In this document: piece by piece, positions 16,253-23,802 of the stretch
Layout of the letters: every line of letters starts with the position of its first letter
Position numbering within the stretch: position 1 is the stretch's first letter
IMG/VR virus record: IMGVR_UViG_3300027739_000017
Location: 1-43,220 of that record
Length of the DNA: 43,220 nucleotides
Strand: one strand, 5' to 3'
Source of the DNA: a virus
The notes under the pieces: model-generated
Seen by the model: the letters and a program-made list of their open reading frames with translations, nothing else
What the model was told of the DNA's origin: nothing
Databases searched by the model: none
Position numbers and translations under genes: made by a program

Positions 16253-16264
16253 GGAGCCGACAAC
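16253..16264 (+). promoter_or_regulatory. Ribosome-binding site complementary to the Rep leader RNA
   Basis: GGAGCCGACAAC directly precedes the ATG and includes the Shine-Dalgarno bases. The minus-strand RNA at 22293-22304 contains the exact reverse complement, so 12 contiguous pairs could mask the start site. See the finding. Confidence 0.6.
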
Positions 16265-18064
16265 ATGACAGAAAAAGAAACAATAGGAACCGCCACTTAT
16301 TCACCAGAGGACAACAAAATAAGGATTTACCCATTTGCGCGCCTTGACAGCGCCACTTATGCGCGAGTAAAAGCAGCCGGTTACAAATGGGCACCTAAAC
16401 AGGAGCTTTTTGTCGCTCCAATGTGGACACCTGAGCGAGAAGACTTAGCCCTTGAGCTTTGCGGCGACATAGAGGACGAGGACAAAAGCCTTGTAGAACG
16501 ACAGGAGGAACGAGCTGAACGCTTTGAAGACTACAGCGCAAAACGGGCAGACGACAGCACAAGAGCACATGCAGCGGTTCAAGAAATATGCGACGGAATC
16601 CCCTTGGGCCAGCCCATACTTGTAGGGCACCACAGCGAGCGCCACGCACGGAAACAAGCGGCTCGAATTGAAAACGGTATGCGTAAAGCTTTAAAGCTTT
16701 TCGATCAATCAAAATACTGGCAACAGAGGGCAGCGGGAGCATTACGCCACGCAAAATATAAAGAATTGCCAAGAGTACGCGCAAACCGGATTAAGACCAT
16801 TGAAGCAGACAAGCGCAAGTTTGAGCGCAACAGGGCCGCAGCGGAAAAGGGGCTTGCTATCTGGACAAAAGAAGGGCTTACGCTTGATGATGCCAGAAAA
16901 ATTGCCGGGTTTACCGAATACGGCCACTTGCCATGCTGCAAAAGTGAGTTCAGTTACTGGTCAGCCTATAATGTTTTAGCCCCCGATGACAAACGATATA
17001 AAGCATGCCCCGCATGGACGCTTGAAATGGTACAGGATCGCGCCCGAAAGAGCTACCCGCACACAATCGCGCATTGTGATAGGTGGATTGCACATTTTAA
17101 AAACCGGCTTATTTATGAAAAAGCCATGCTTGACGAACAAGGCGAAAGTGATTTAATTGCACCCAAGGCGAGGCCGAAACAACTACCAATCTGCAATTAC
17201 AAAGCGCCGGGAGGCATAACGCTTGAAAACGTCTATAAGCGGGGCACTACCGAGCATTACCCACAAGTTGAAATGACCGCAGCAGAGTATAAAGCCATTT
17301 ATGATGATTACAAAGGCACAAGAACCGTCGAAAACTCCCATCGTGTTAGAATTGCCCTTATTAAAAAAGACGGGGGGCAGTTTTATGATCGGCTGCATGT
17401 TTGCGTTTTTATCTCTGACAGCAAGGCACATTCTAAACCGGAAGCTATTGAGAAAAATCCCGTTATTTTTGACGCCCCAGCAATACCGCAATACAGAGCG
17501 CCGAAAGAAGAGACAGAACAGGAAAAAGAAATGCAAGCTATGCGCGAAACGCTCAAAACAGGCGTTCAAACCGTATCAGCACCGCAGCTTTTCCCAACTC
17601 CGCCCGAAATTGCCGAGCAAATGATTGAAGCGGCAGACATTCAGCCGGGGCATGACTTACTTGAACCATCAGCGGGAACCGGCAACCTTCTAAAAGCCCT
17701 GCCATGTATACGGCCAAACGGAGCCATCACAGCGGTTGAAATCAATTATACCCTTTCAAAAGCTCTTGAACCATGGGCCGATAATATTGTTTGCGGCGAC
17801 TTTTTGGAGCACAACGGCGATCTTGGCAAATTTGACCGGATCATAATGAATCCCCCTTTTGAAAACGGCAGCGATATAAAACATATTAAACACGCTATCA
17901 AATTTTTAAAGCCTAACGGCAGGCTTGTTGCCCTTTGCGCTAACGGGCCACGGCAGCAGGAGCAGTTAAAACCGCTTGCGGATTCATGGAAAGTGCTACC
18001 GGAGGGAAGTTTTAAAAACAGCGGCACTATGGTTAATGTCGCAATGATGGTTATCAATAATTAA
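16265..18064 (+). CDS. DUF3560 domain - adenine methyltransferase fusion (599 aa)
   Basis: The N-terminus (ATYSPEDNKIRIYPFARLDS, YKWAPKQELFVAPMWTPER) and the region around residues 75-180 with PLGQPILVGHHSERHARKQ match the DUF3560 family found on plasmids and mobile elements. The C-terminal 160 residues are a class I methyltransferase: FPTPPEIAEQM, LLEPSAGTGNLL (SAM-binding motif I, about residue 465), ITAVEIN (motif II), and IMNPPFENG (NPPF catalytic motif IV, about 530), indicating N6-adenine methylation. No specificity domain or restriction partner is present, so a solitary anti-restriction or regulatory methylase is likely. First gene of the only rightward operon. Its ribosome-binding site GGAGCCGACAAC (16253-16264) is complementary over 12 nt to the Rep leader RNA. 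Start supported by AAGGAG. Confidence 0.8.
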   Translation: MTEKETIGTATYSPEDNKIRIYPFARLDSATYARVKAAGYKWAPKQELFVAPMWTPEREDLALELCGDIEDEDKSLVERQEERAERFEDYSAKRADDSTRAHAAVQEICDGIPLGQPILVGHHSERHARKQAARIENGMRKALKLFDQSKYWQQRAAGALRHAKYKELPRVRANRIKTIEADKRKFERNRAAAEKGLAIWTKEGLTLDDARKIAGFTEYGHLPCCKSEFSYWSAYNVLAPDDKRYKACPAWTLEMVQDRARKSYPHTIAHCDRWIAHFKNRLIYEKAMLDEQGESDLIAPKARPKQLPICNYKAPGGITLENVYKRGTTEHYPQVEMTAAEYKAIYDDYKGTRTVENSHRVRIALIKKDGGQFYDRLHVCVFISDSKAHSKPEAIEKNPVIFDAPAIPQYRAPKEETEQEKEMQAMRETLKTGVQTVSAPQLFPTPPEIAEQMIEAADIQPGHDLLEPSAGTGNLLKALPCIRPNGAITAVEINYTLSKALEPWADNIVCGDFLEHNGDLGKFDRIIMNPPFENGSDIKHIKHAIKFLKPNGRLVALCANGPRQQEQLKPLADSWKVLPEGSFKNSGTMVNVAMMVINN

Positions 18065-21120: not shown

Positions 21121-21555
21121 TTAAATCGGTATATCTCGCTCCGGTTCTGCCGGTATTCTGGTCTCGTCTATGCCATCACCGTTATAAATCGGCAAAGTCG
21201 GGGCGTCATAGCTTCTGCATTTGCACCGATAAACAAAACTGTACGGCAAATTGTCAATCATGCGCCTTGTGTGGATCAGGCCCATGCTGCAGTCAGGGCA
21301 ACCGATGCCGTTGAAGTGGCTACCGGCCACCGTCTCTCCATTTTTCTTATCCTGCATGGCAAGGGCGCGCTTAATGGCCGGCAGCGTTAATTTGCTTTCA
21401 TCTTCAATAAGCTGCTCCATAGCAGCCCTGAATTTTTCTTCATCCGTGAATTTCAGCCGGTCGTAAAGTTCCTCTACCTGATCTTTTTTTAAAGCTCTAT
21501 CGCAGCAATGAGCAAAACGCTTTAAAATGTCATAAAAAACATCGTGGGCTATCAT
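21121..21555 (-). CDS. Zinc-finger replication accessory, helicase-loader-like position (144 aa)
   Basis: The start at ATG 21555 is fixed by the ATGA overlap with the Rep stop. The N-terminal half is helical (DVFYDILKRFAHCCDRALKK, then EELYDRLKFTDEEKFRAAM), followed by LPAIKRALAM. The C-terminal half has GCPDCSMG and YRCKCRSYD, a four-Cys zinc ribbon. The arrangement directly after a DUF1376-type Rep protein is where phages often encode a helicase loader. No Walker A is present, so it is not a DnaC-type ATPase. Confidence 0.6.
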   Translation of the reverse strand: MIAHDVFYDILKRFAHCCDRALKKDQVEELYDRLKFTDEEKFRAAMEQLIEDESKLTLPAIKRALAMQDKKNGETVAGSHFNGIGCPDCSMGLIHTRRMIDNLPYSFVYRCKCRSYDAPTLPIYNGDGIDETRIPAEPERDIPI

Positions 21556-22250
21556 GTCAACCACTCACTTTCCTTTTTTGGCGGTTCTGTCTTGATCGTG
21601 TCGTGCCATCCTTCCCGGTTCAGCCAAGTTTTCGCCATCGGGATAAACTGACCGCCATCTTTTGTCCAGCCCCAGGATAATTTCAAGGCTTCCAAGTTTT
21701 CAAGGATCATCGGGAACGGGTTTTTCTCAAAGTCAATTTTTTGCCACAAGGCAAGGCACCGCTTTTTGTCGCTCTTGTTCGGGTATGCCTGCCAGAAAAT
21801 CTCAAAAGTTTTTTCCCTACTACTTCTTTTATTCTTAAGAGTTAATACATTTTCATTTTCATTTTCATTTTCATTTTCATTTTCATTTTCATTTTCTAAA
21901 GGTACTACCGTGGTAGTACCGTGGAATACTTTTGGTTGTTCCACTTTTTTCTTTTTATCCCAATAATTTTGAATCCTAACTCTTTGTTTTTCTGCATGTT
22001 CTTTCCTTTTGCCTATCTCTTCATCCATACGATAATTGAAATATAAGCCATTTTTGTCAATATCAAACTTTGTCATAACTGGAGAATCAAGAGAACCACA
22101 CATTTTAAGCATATGAGTTATAGGAAGATGTCCGATTTGATGCTGTTGGCATAATAACCGGATATATTTACCGCACTCTTCATCTGTAAAAAGCATGGTT
22201 CCAATTAGGAAATCAGAAGTAAAAAACAGAACCGCAGGGTCTTTTCCCAT
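21552..22250 (-). CDS. Replication initiation protein, DUF1376-like N-terminus (232 aa)
   Basis: Residues 8-45 (FFTSDFLIGTMLFTDEECGK, then IRLLCQQHQIGHLP) match the DUF1376/phage replication-protein pattern of a winged-helix DNA-binding head. Then a basic helix (KRKEHAEKQRVRIQNYWDKKKK), a linker containing eight Glu-Asn repeats, and a C-terminal domain (FEIFWQAYPNKSDKKRCLAL, then WTKDGGQFIPMAKTWLNREGW) typical of phage replication proteins that recruit the host helicase. The linker DNA holds a hexanucleotide tandem repeat and a perfect palindrome, so the origin may be inside the gene, as in lambda O. The SD (GAGGG) overlaps the stop of a 33-aa leader ORF. No phage polymerase, helicase or primase is visible, so host machinery must be used. 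Confidence 0.7.
   Translation of the reverse strand: MGKDPAVLFFTSDFLIGTMLFTDEECGKYIRLLCQQHQIGHLPITHMLKMCGSLDSPVMTKFDIDKNGLYFNYRMDEEIGKRKEHAEKQRVRIQNYWDKKKKVEQPKVFHGTTTVVPLENENENENENENENENVLTLKNKRSSREKTFEIFWQAYPNKSDKKRCLALWQKIDFEKNPFPMILENLEALKLSWGWTKDGGQFIPMAKTWLNREGWHDTIKTEPPKKESEWLT
21848..21896. repeat. Tandem hexanucleotide repeat (8 x CATTTT) in the Rep gene
   Basis: Eight perfect units of CATTTT (GAAAAT on the coding strand), encoding Glu-Asn repeats in the Rep linker. Very AT-rich, suitable as a DNA-unwinding element. Copy number can vary by slippage without shifting the frame. Confidence 0.95.
21901..21920. other. Perfect palindrome beside the repeat, candidate origin of replication
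   Basis: GGTACTACC, GT, GGTAGTACC: 9-bp perfect arms. It abuts the AT-rich hexamer array inside the initiator gene, the layout of initiator-gene origins such as lambda ori. Confidence 0.5.
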
Positions 22251-22257
22251 TACGCCC

Positions 22258-22359
22258 TCAAAAGCAAAAATCGCCTAAAAAGATAGCCAAGGGGAGCCGA
22301 CAACGGGGATGCACCGTTGAACCCTTGGCTATTCTTAATAGGCGAATTGTATTTATCAT
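22258..22359 (-). CDS. Leader peptide ORF upstream of Rep (33 aa)
   Basis: ATG 22359 is preceded by AAGGA at good spacing. The frame runs right through the structured leader RNA and stops at TGA 22258-22260, inside the GAGGG ribosome-binding site of Rep, eight bases before its ATG. The peptide (MINTIRLLRIAKGSTVHPRC onward) has no recognised domain. Its translation would melt the RNA structure and deliver ribosomes to Rep, as in leader-peptide-coupled replicon control (IncB RepY-type) or P1/P7 orfX. Coding is inferred from the ribosome-binding site and the coupling, not from protein similarity. Confidence 0.5.
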   Translation of the reverse strand: MINTIRLLRIAKGSTVHPRCRLPLAIFLGDFCF

Positions 22360-22384
22360 TTTGCATCCTTAAAACTGTCGGCTA
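22266..22384 (-). ncRNA. C4/CI-like structured regulatory leader RNA
   Basis: From the predicted start near 22384, the RNA holds three nested stems: outer UCGCCUA/UAGGCGA (22339-22345 with 22271-22277), middle AUAGCCAAGGG/CCCUUGGCUAU (22322-22332 with 22283-22293), and inner CAACGG/CCGUUG (22314-22319 with 22301-22306). Both the middle and outer stems are followed by five U, so each can act as a terminator. The whole 7-nt apical loop UGCAUCC (22307-22313) is complementary to GGAUGCA (22362-22368) at the leader ORF's ribosome-binding site. The bulge UGUCGGCU (22295-22302) is complementary to AGCCGACA at the 5' end (22376-22383). Two separate complementary targets upstream match the a/b logic of P1/P7 C4 RNA and P4 CI RNA. 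Located between a strong promoter and Rep. Confidence 0.75.
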
Positions 22385-22389
22385 TTCGG

Positions 22390-22417
22390 ATATTATCATT
22401 TTCTAAAAACGTGTCAA
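22390..22417 (-). promoter_or_regulatory. Strong sigma70 promoter of the replication operon
   Basis: Minus strand TTGACA (22412-22417), 16-bp spacer, TAATAT (22390-22395). Start predicted at 22382-22384, which puts the AGCCGACA target at the extreme 5' end of the RNA. Confidence 0.85.
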
Positions 22418-22686
22418 CTTTTTTTTATCAACTCCCACTGATCCCTGATATGGGGATGAACCGCAGGGTCAAACCCCTTGCAACCGGCTATGCAAGACGG
22501 CAGGCCGCAGCACACACAACCGGATTCAGGAGCCTTGCCGAGCTTTTCAAGGGTGCGCTGAAAAATTCCGAAGTTGAACTCCATTGCAAGATAGTTGCGC
22601 TCTGCAGGGTTCGGATTTCCGAAGTCCTCAGCGCGACCGCGATAGTATAAACCGCCTGCCATTTTAAGCTTTTGACTACCTTCCAT
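22414..22686 (-). CDS. Cys-rich small protein (90 aa)
   Basis: ATG 22686 chosen for its AAGGAGGT ribosome-binding site; longer forms run into the HNH gene. Contains SGCVCCGLPSCIAGCKGFDP (five Cys) and an aromatic helix (YLAMEFNFGIFQRTLEKLGK). Not recognised; probably metal-binding. The segment EDFGNPNP is encoded by a palindrome copy. Its stop overlaps the -35 of the next promoter, so it closes the recombination operon. Confidence 0.6.
   Translation of the reverse strand: MEGSQKLKMAGGLYYRGRAEDFGNPNPAERNYLAMEFNFGIFQRTLEKLGKAPESGCVCCGLPSCIAGCKGFDPAVHPHIRDQWELIKKS
22608..22625. repeat. Dispersed palindrome copy
   Basis: GGTTCGGATTTCCGAAGT, arms TTCGGA/TCCGAA. Read in the F-G-N-P frame of the 90-aa gene. 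Confidence 0.8.
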
Positions 22687-23005
22687 CGAATGACCTCCTT
22701 CCAAGTAAAGTGACAACTTTATGACAACCAACACACAAGGGCCTGACCTCTTCAAACCTGTGCCGCCGTATGCCAAGGGGTTTCAGGTGATGAATTTCTA
22801 TGCCGTACTTTTTTTCGCCGCATTTCTGGCAGTGATCGCCCCATATCATAAGGGCCGTTCTTCGGAAATACGAATACAGTTGCGAATAATGGTGCGCGCA
22901 CAGGTGATATCGTTCATACCCGTTATACCATTTTGTAGCCTTGCGATTGCAGCCGGGATAATAACAACCTTTGTTCCATGCCTGTTTGCCGGAGCCTGCT
23001 TTCAT
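22676..23005 (-). CDS. HNH endonuclease-like protein (109 aa)
   Basis: HNH pattern with structural zinc: YYPGCNRKATKW and CAHHYSQLYSYF near the N-terminus, then DHCQKCGEKKYGIEIHHLKPLG (about residues 57-78) and VRPLCVGCHKVV (about 90). The His-His pair and the Cys pairs are the usual HNH metal and catalytic elements. It may nick DNA in recombination or degrade host DNA, or be a homing-type element; it is not next to terminase, where packaging HNH proteins normally sit. ATGA overlap with the ParB-like gene. Confidence 0.7.
   Translation of the reverse strand: MKAGSGKQAWNKGCYYPGCNRKATKWYNGYERYHLCAHHYSQLYSYFRRTALMIWGDHCQKCGEKKYGIEIHHLKPLGIRRHRFEEVRPLCVGCHKVVTLLGRRSFDGR
22861..22872. repeat. Dispersed palindrome copy (variant)
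   Basis: TTCGGAAATACGAA. One-base G-to-T variant of the core, inside the HNH-like gene. Confidence 0.6.
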
Positions 23006-23802
23006 AACAGGTCCGTCACTTCCTGGTCAATTCCTTCTCTGACCTCATGGATAATGTCCCGGTACTTGTCATTGTCAAGGTTCTTCGGATTGTCGGGGAT
23101 GCTGTGCATGGCTTCCACAAGGGCCAGCTCAAGAGCTTCCTCCCTGGTGCGGATTTCGTGCGCCTGCCGGAAGTTCTCAACCATCTTCACGCAGTGCTCC
23201 CGCATTTTGGTATTCGGAAAATTGAAGTATAACTTGAGCATTTTGCTGGCATCGTTCGCCTTGTACTCGGGCCGCTGGAAGTCTCTACCGTCTTTGCCAA
23301 TATAGCTTTTCACAATGGGGATCGTCTTTTTCAGTTCCAGTTCGCGCCGAATGTTTGAAACGGTTTTATCCGTCACGCCGCAAATGTCGGAGATCCAATT
23401 TGCGGAGCGCTCGGGGTGTGCAATCAGAATGTTCGCCGCGGCTTTCTTGCGTTCTTCAATCGTCAGCGGGTGTCCGTGCGAACAGTTTGACTGCACAGCG
23501 TATTCATAGGCATCGTCAAAAGTTCCCTTCAAGACAAACGCTTCTGCGAACTCCTGCCCAACCTGAAGCCTTGCAGTCAGACGATGTAACCCGTCGCACA
23601 GATAATTCCCCTCGGGGAAATCGGGCGGCTGGTTGATGTGAAACAGAACAATCGGGGCAGTTATTTTCGGCAGGTTCTCAATTAGGATTTCGACGTATGA
23701 CTTGTCGAGGGGCCGTACCTGCAGTTCCTTGTTGATCAGAATATCCTTCATCAAAATTCTCTGCAGGCGCGGCATTTGTCGTTCAACAGGTGTCGTTTTC
23801 AT
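23002..23802 (-). CDS. ParB-like nuclease/partition-domain protein (266 aa)
   Basis: Residues 20-110 follow the ParB/Spo0J N-terminal domain: LQVRPLDKSYVEILIENLPKI, then the GxxRxxA-type box in CDGLHRLTARLQVG (about 69-82, Gly-Leu-His-Arg-Leu-Thr-Ala), the loop that binds CTP in ParB. A helix-turn-helix follows (LTIEERKKAAANIL, then WISDICGVTDKTVSNIRREL). The C-terminal half is helical and acidic. It differs from chromosomal ParB in details and resembles ParB/StrR-type regulators of phages and plasmids. No ParA ATPase is seen. Relevant because the genome has a perfect parS site; whether this protein or host ParB binds it is unknown. ATGA overlaps at both ends. Confidence 0.65.
   Translation of the reverse strand: MKTTPVERQMPRLQRILMKDILINKELQVRPLDKSYVEILIENLPKITAPIVLFHINQPPDFPEGNYLCDGLHRLTARLQVGQEFAEAFVLKGTFDDAYEYAVQSNCSHGHPLTIEERKKAAANILIAHPERSANWISDICGVTDKTVSNIRRELELKKTIPIVKSYIGKDGRDFQRPEYKANDASKMLKLYFNFPNTKMREHCVKMVENFRQAHEIRTREEALELALVEAMHSIPDNPKNLDNDKYRDIIHEVREGIDQEVTDLL

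Follow-up and report, generated by a model that had tools for sequence, protein, structure and literature searches.

The window, i.e., the whole stretch of 43,220 bases analyzed here, is a complete IMG/VR virus record in which a series of putative switch elements lies on the minus strand, 5' of a Rep-type gene. The elements are listed below in the order of the predicted transcript; they were read from the sequence, except that the hairpin is a predicted fold and that A' and B' combine sequence with fold.

22390-22417, minus strand: sigma-70-type promoter TTGACA-16-TAATAT with TG before the -10 (10/12 matches; the -35 region is identical in the relative L082)
22376-22383, minus strand: target A (AGCCGACA), at the predicted 5' end of the transcript
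22362-22368, minus strand: target B (GGATGCA), overlapping the leader ribosome-binding site AAGGA
22258-22359, minus strand: leader ORF of 33 aa, which crosses the hairpin and has its TGA stop within the Rep ribosome-binding site
22271-22345, minus strand: predicted antisense/attenuator hairpin with an outer 7-bp stem, a middle stem, an inner 6-bp stem, a 7-nt apical loop and a 7-nt 3' bulge
22307-22313, minus strand: B' (TGCATCC), the entire apical loop, complementary to B
22295-22302, minus strand: A' (TGTCGGCT), complement of A, made up of the 3' bulge and of 2 nt belonging to the inner stem
22277-22281, minus strand: U5 run after the middle stem, possible terminator
22266-22270, minus strand: U5 run after the outer stem, possible terminator
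22254-22259, minus strand: Rep ribosome-binding site GAGGGC, overlapped by the leader stop
21552-22250, minus strand: Rep-type gene, 232 aa (PHROG matches phrog_9327, primosomal, 1e-20, and phrog_270, replication initiation, 5e-19)

The preliminary description of this DNA had called the replication gene "DUF1376-type", a label without Pfam support for the window protein: PF07120 (DUF1376) gave nothing against it even at E<=10, and DUF1376 similarity was seen only in Rep homologues (L172, 3e-5; L093, 7e-4; both below the curated cut-off). As Pfam gave no DUF1376 match for the 21552-22250 product, the name Rep is drawn from the PHROG families and the homologues. The strong promoter that had been claimed was borne out by its match to the consensus, and its position places target A at about +1. 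Furthermore, the ATG of the leader ORF is preceded by AAGGA and its TGA overlaps the GAGGGC ahead of the Rep ATG, as had been described. Comparable leader ORFs were found in L082 (35 aa), L093 (33 aa) and L091 (44-45 aa), whose stops fall between -10 and +1 relative to the start of Rep.

Folding returned all three nested stems proposed earlier, with z-scores of -4.25 and -6.33 that no shuffle equalled. The 7-nt apical loop was indeed wholly complementary to the ribosome-binding site of the leader ORF (22307-22313 with 22362-22368). The complementarity claimed between a bulge and the transcript 5' end stood as an 8-bp pairing (22295-22302 with 22376-22383) but not as one confined to a bulge: A' shares 2 nt with the inner stem and is therefore bulge plus stem end. 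U5 runs were present behind two stems, and every position that the preliminary description had assigned was correct on the minus strand. When the 5' leader was compared with the rest, the longest two complementarities were A/A' (8 bp) and B/B' (7 bp). Moreover, the score for the full architecture was 26 in the window and 29 in L082, whereas the top score among 2,000 dinucleotide shuffles per sequence was 23.

One close relative, L082 (contig IMGVR_UViG_3300014839_000066), was recovered; DNA-pattern and neighbouring-protein searches of viral and genome collections yielded no leader homologue beyond it, and genome searches across whole phyla gave one additional match, which was uninformative. 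Identity between the window and L082 was 90% in the upstream ORF, 79-86% in the downstream genes, 69% in the leader and 65% in the N-terminal part of Rep. Despite the divergence of the leader the three stems were kept in L082, and both pairings were preserved with altered letters: A (TGACGACAAG) and A' (CTTGTCGTCA) both differ from those of the window and pair perfectly over 10 bp, while B (AGGGATAT), which again lies over the leader ribosome-binding site, and B' (ATATCCCT) both differ and pair perfectly over 8 bp. Computed duplex energies of the window's cognate pairs were -12.8 (A) and -9.8 kcal/mol (B), versus -3.0 to -6.9 kcal/mol for cross pairs; over both viruses the cognate A and B duplexes ranged from -9.5 to -14.2 kcal/mol. 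The preliminary description had stated that loss of either complementarity without compensation in related phages would speak against it; since A and B were changed in L082 with full compensation, its reading survived this comparison, in one close relative. Conserved RNA-level pairing ahead of the Rep-type gene is well supported.

The layout recurred in more distant phages. In L093, a contig assigned to Candidatus Shapirobacteria (Patescibacteria) with the promoter TTGACC-17-TATATT, A (TGAGAACAAA) follows directly after the -10 and B (AATCGAGG) lies over the leader ribosome-binding site; A' is in the bulge and B' in the apical loop (B/B' includes one G-U), and the order of the window is kept, i.e., promoter, A, B, an ORF crossing the hairpin and a stop shortly before rep. 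A partial layout was seen in L091, with a bulge pairing CCAGAGA/TCTCTGG and a leader ORF that overlaps the Rep start. In phages with TAnnTTTG-type (Bacteroidota-type) promoters, the loop of a 5' hairpin matched that of a terminator directly before rep, forming 7-nt kissing loops that covary: GTAGGAT/ATCCTAC in the L172 group, GTCGCAT/ATGCGAC in the L176 group and ATGCGAC/GTCGCAT in L183; similar pairs were found in L027/L035 and L037/L039. Cultured Vibrio, Pseudoalteromonas and Shewanella phages had DnaD-type replication genes without the leader design. Separately, complementarities of 9 nt between a target and a terminator loop were observed before an HNH-like gene in L173 (~2000-2170; TGTCGGATA) and before a gene matching DnaD-like loaders in L147 (~2660-2830; ACGCATGAC).

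A generic loop-duplex test, which was noisy because the choice of hairpin merged adjacent stems, was dropped, and a terminator-based test with swap and orientation controls was used instead. A terminator-like hairpin lay within 60 nt of the Rep start in 49/127 leader clusters, and 16 of these 49 reached a complementarity score of at least 18 in the antiparallel orientation, versus 5, 4 and 4 in the orientation controls. Among leader clusters of this Rep family in which a strong terminator lay no more than 25 nt from the start, a subset picked after inspection of the data though not by complementarity, 15/24 scored at least 18 versus 1.6 in swapped leaders (maximum 7 in 20,000; p at most 5e-5); when the window and L082 were left out, 13/22 did so. 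The leader ORF was not general (7/24 versus 5.9 expected; with a ribosome-binding site, 4 versus 1.3 expected). In the 18 strong leaders scoring at least 17, the complementary bases were unpaired in 77% of cases, compared to a background of 37%. Hairpins elsewhere in the contigs showed no excess (138 versus 113 in the orientation control, of 1370), and hairpins before rep scored at least 18 more often than the others in the same contigs (11/39 versus 138/1370; Fisher p 0.0016).

To our knowledge, same-strand antisense control of the C4/CI type is known from few phages, in which it mostly guards antirepressors or satellite replication; a literature search found no paper on a leader such as this one. 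In IncB/IncI-type RepZ control, a leader peptide is coupled to the replication gene and a loop is complementary to a distant leader site; the antisense RNA there comes from the opposite strand, whereas both elements of the window lie on one strand. On the plus strand, from which such an opposite-strand RNA would come, the only promoter-like site was weak (22369-22396, 9/12 matches).

The annotated P1 record has the order promoter, a1, b1, c4 RNA, a2, b2, icd, ant. In the P1 C4 fold, b' occupies the apical loop of an inner 6-bp hairpin and a' lies in a 7-nt 3' bulge; an outer stem and a side hairpin complete the structure. Several features of P1/P7 C4 (RF01695; targets c4-a1b1, RF03163; c4-icd-ant operon) are shared by the window: i) a same-strand antisense RNA (predicted in the window) lies between the promoter and the target gene; ii) the targets a and b are short, with a 7-nt gap in both (a1-b1 in P1, A-B in the window); iii) b' lies in the apical loop, with a' after it in a 3' bulge of 7 nt; iv) an upstream ORF, which abuts or overlaps the next gene, has one of the targets at its ribosome-binding site. 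On the other hand, a 2-nt bulge takes the place of the 5' side hairpin in the window, and the upstream target pair is the only one and itself carries the ribosome-binding site: no further copies of A or B, as an a2/b2-like second pair 3' of the hairpin, were found in the leader or rep. Furthermore, unlike in P1, the leader ORF passes through the antisense hairpin, and a replication gene rather than an antirepressor follows. The window, L082, L093 and L091 agree in having the outer stem, the inner hairpin and a 3' bulge of 7 nt, and all four lack the side hairpin; the bulged inner hairpin is rare, with three further cases, L082 aside, among 933 hairpins of the same contigs. The preliminary description had suggested that the locus works like C4/CI, a reading that is well supported by the compensated pairing in L082 and by the topology of b' loop and 7-nt a' bulge as in P1 C4.

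Membership in the Rfam C4 family is a separate matter. The scan with the C4 covariance model that had been suggested gave no match: RF01695 found nothing in the window at the gathering threshold, nor in the leader at E<=5, nor in seven relatives at E<=1, with the P1 positive control at 68.8 bits. Membership, for which the window differs from C4 in going undetected by the model, is thus ruled out.

Two other phage systems offer partial parallels. P4 CI RNA arises by processing of the leader of the transcript that it targets, pairs with an upstream site and prematurely terminates transcription of the replication genes (PMC4825925). The RNA proposed for the window would likewise derive from the leader of the message on which it acts and pair upstream; in this comparison of design, CI pairs with seqA and seqC on both sides, whereas the window has upstream sites only. 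In IsrK of prophage Gifsy-1, a short leader RNA and a longer mRNA arise from one promoter and translation of a small ORF brings ribosomes to the next gene (PMC4825925), as the small leader ORF of the window may do for rep; IsrK is described as opening a ribosome-binding site, whereas the predicted effect in the window is to close one.

We favor, as the probable explanation, that the rep leader is a same-strand antisense attenuator of Rep, of the C4/CI kind, with negative feedback via free hairpin RNA. Under this model the nascent 5' end would display A and, at B, the leader ribosome-binding site; ribosomes loading on the leader ORF would translate across the hairpin, prevent it and its U-run terminators from closing, and arrive at the Rep start through translational coupling. 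Once released as a short RNA by termination or processing, the hairpin could bind a newly made transcript, A' to A and B' to B, which would block leader translation, allow the terminators to form and leave Rep uncoupled. The outcome would be negative feedback on the replication gene, with specificity residing in A and B, so that close relatives with other A/B sequences would be hetero-specific, in a putative copy control or immunity. For the leader RNA itself, we infer transcription, termination, a free form, action in trans and a biological role; Rep may thereby be controlled in trans. Since the pairing was kept through change and recurs in many viruses, the virus probably limits its own replication and excludes close relatives.

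A further site in the window bears on action in trans:

16253-16264, plus strand: candidate trans target at the ribosome-binding site of ORF 16265-18064, which it covers; perfectly complementary over 12 nt to the A' bulge region

This was the only 12-mer match to the hairpin outside the locus, and the ORF, a DUF3560/methyltransferase ORF, lies on the strand opposite to the hairpin. As 1.5% of trials with shuffled hairpins also gave 12 nt at one or another ORF start (chance 0.015 over all ORF starts), the match is only suggestive of a hairpin acting in trans. The fetched regions of L082 contained no homologue of ORF 16265, and a search for trans targets with whole-hairpin duplexes was uninformative.

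The strongest competitor, which we consider unlikely though well worth weighing, is a cis-only attenuator in which A and B pair with A' and B' within one transcript (a pseudoknot or alternative fold) and no free antisense RNA is made; it would set leader translation and termination, and may respond to ribosome loading or another signal. Compensatory changes are equally compatible with pairing in cis, phages with Bacteroidota-type promoters have kissing loops on the 5' hairpin and the terminator of one leader, as expected of a switch in cis, and, as A and B sit on the same molecule as A' and B', cis pairing may dominate, which counts against the antisense attenuator favored here. However, P1 C4, which shares the loop-and-bulge topology, is described as trans-acting (PMC8546580), the match at the ribosome-binding site of ORF 16265 would have no role in a cis-only device, and the energies of cognate and cross pairs are far apart, as specificity between relatives predicts.

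Much less probable is a DNA-level element, in which the A/A' and B/B' inverted repeats and the hairpin bind a protein or form an origin, e.g., for Rep autorepression. The repeats are inverted in the DNA as well, and A lies at the predicted transcription start; yet the complementarity prefers loops and bulges of the folded RNA and coincides with the leader ribosome-binding site in the window, L082 and L093, while the complementary sequences differ strongly between close relatives. Finally, although strong T-run hairpins are frequent in these contigs, it is hardly credible that this one is an ordinary terminator or intergenic structure whose complementarity arose by chance, given an architecture score above all 2,000 shuffles, two pairings preserved through sequence change, and enrichment over swapped leaders, orientation controls and other hairpins.

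Beyond the antisense attenuator proposed for the window, a wider proposition seems to us evenly poised between right and wrong: that self-antisense attenuators form a widespread class and govern replication genes in phages from several host groups, with a target at the transcript 5' end, a match of 7-10 nt to the loop or bulge of a terminator or hairpin immediately before the gene, and a specificity that changes fast. If true, this class is undescribed, comprises a leader-ORF form and a kissing-loop form with Bacteroidota-type promoters, and has P1 C4 as one relative specialized in design. Such control directly ahead of a common phage replication gene, with a specificity that differs between near relatives, would be a simple RNA basis both for copy control and for exclusion between related viruses, and would predict which phages are mutually tolerant.

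As for lifestyle, the scanned ORFs included neither an integrase nor a lysogeny repressor, which leaves an immunity role unproven, and the window contained no tRNA genes. A weakly ParB-like protein (phrog_1033, 2e-4) is encoded at 23002-23802 (minus strand); ParA was not noticed.

Several minor observations were made around the locus. The C-terminal part of Rep differs between L082 (326-1680) and the window (21552-22250), and L082 has an extra ORF between rep and the next shared gene, which by eye resembles a DnaC-type ATPase; a replication module seems to have been exchanged. The upstream ORF of L082 (L082 1-163; window 22414-22776, minus strand) contains CGGTGCATCCCC, 12 nt identical to the loop region of the window hairpin. 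AGCCGACA occurs seven times in the window versus 1.1 expected, two of the copies being A and A' themselves, and GACCCTGCGGTTC is present at both the end of the upstream ORF (22440-22476) and the start of rep (22225-22245).
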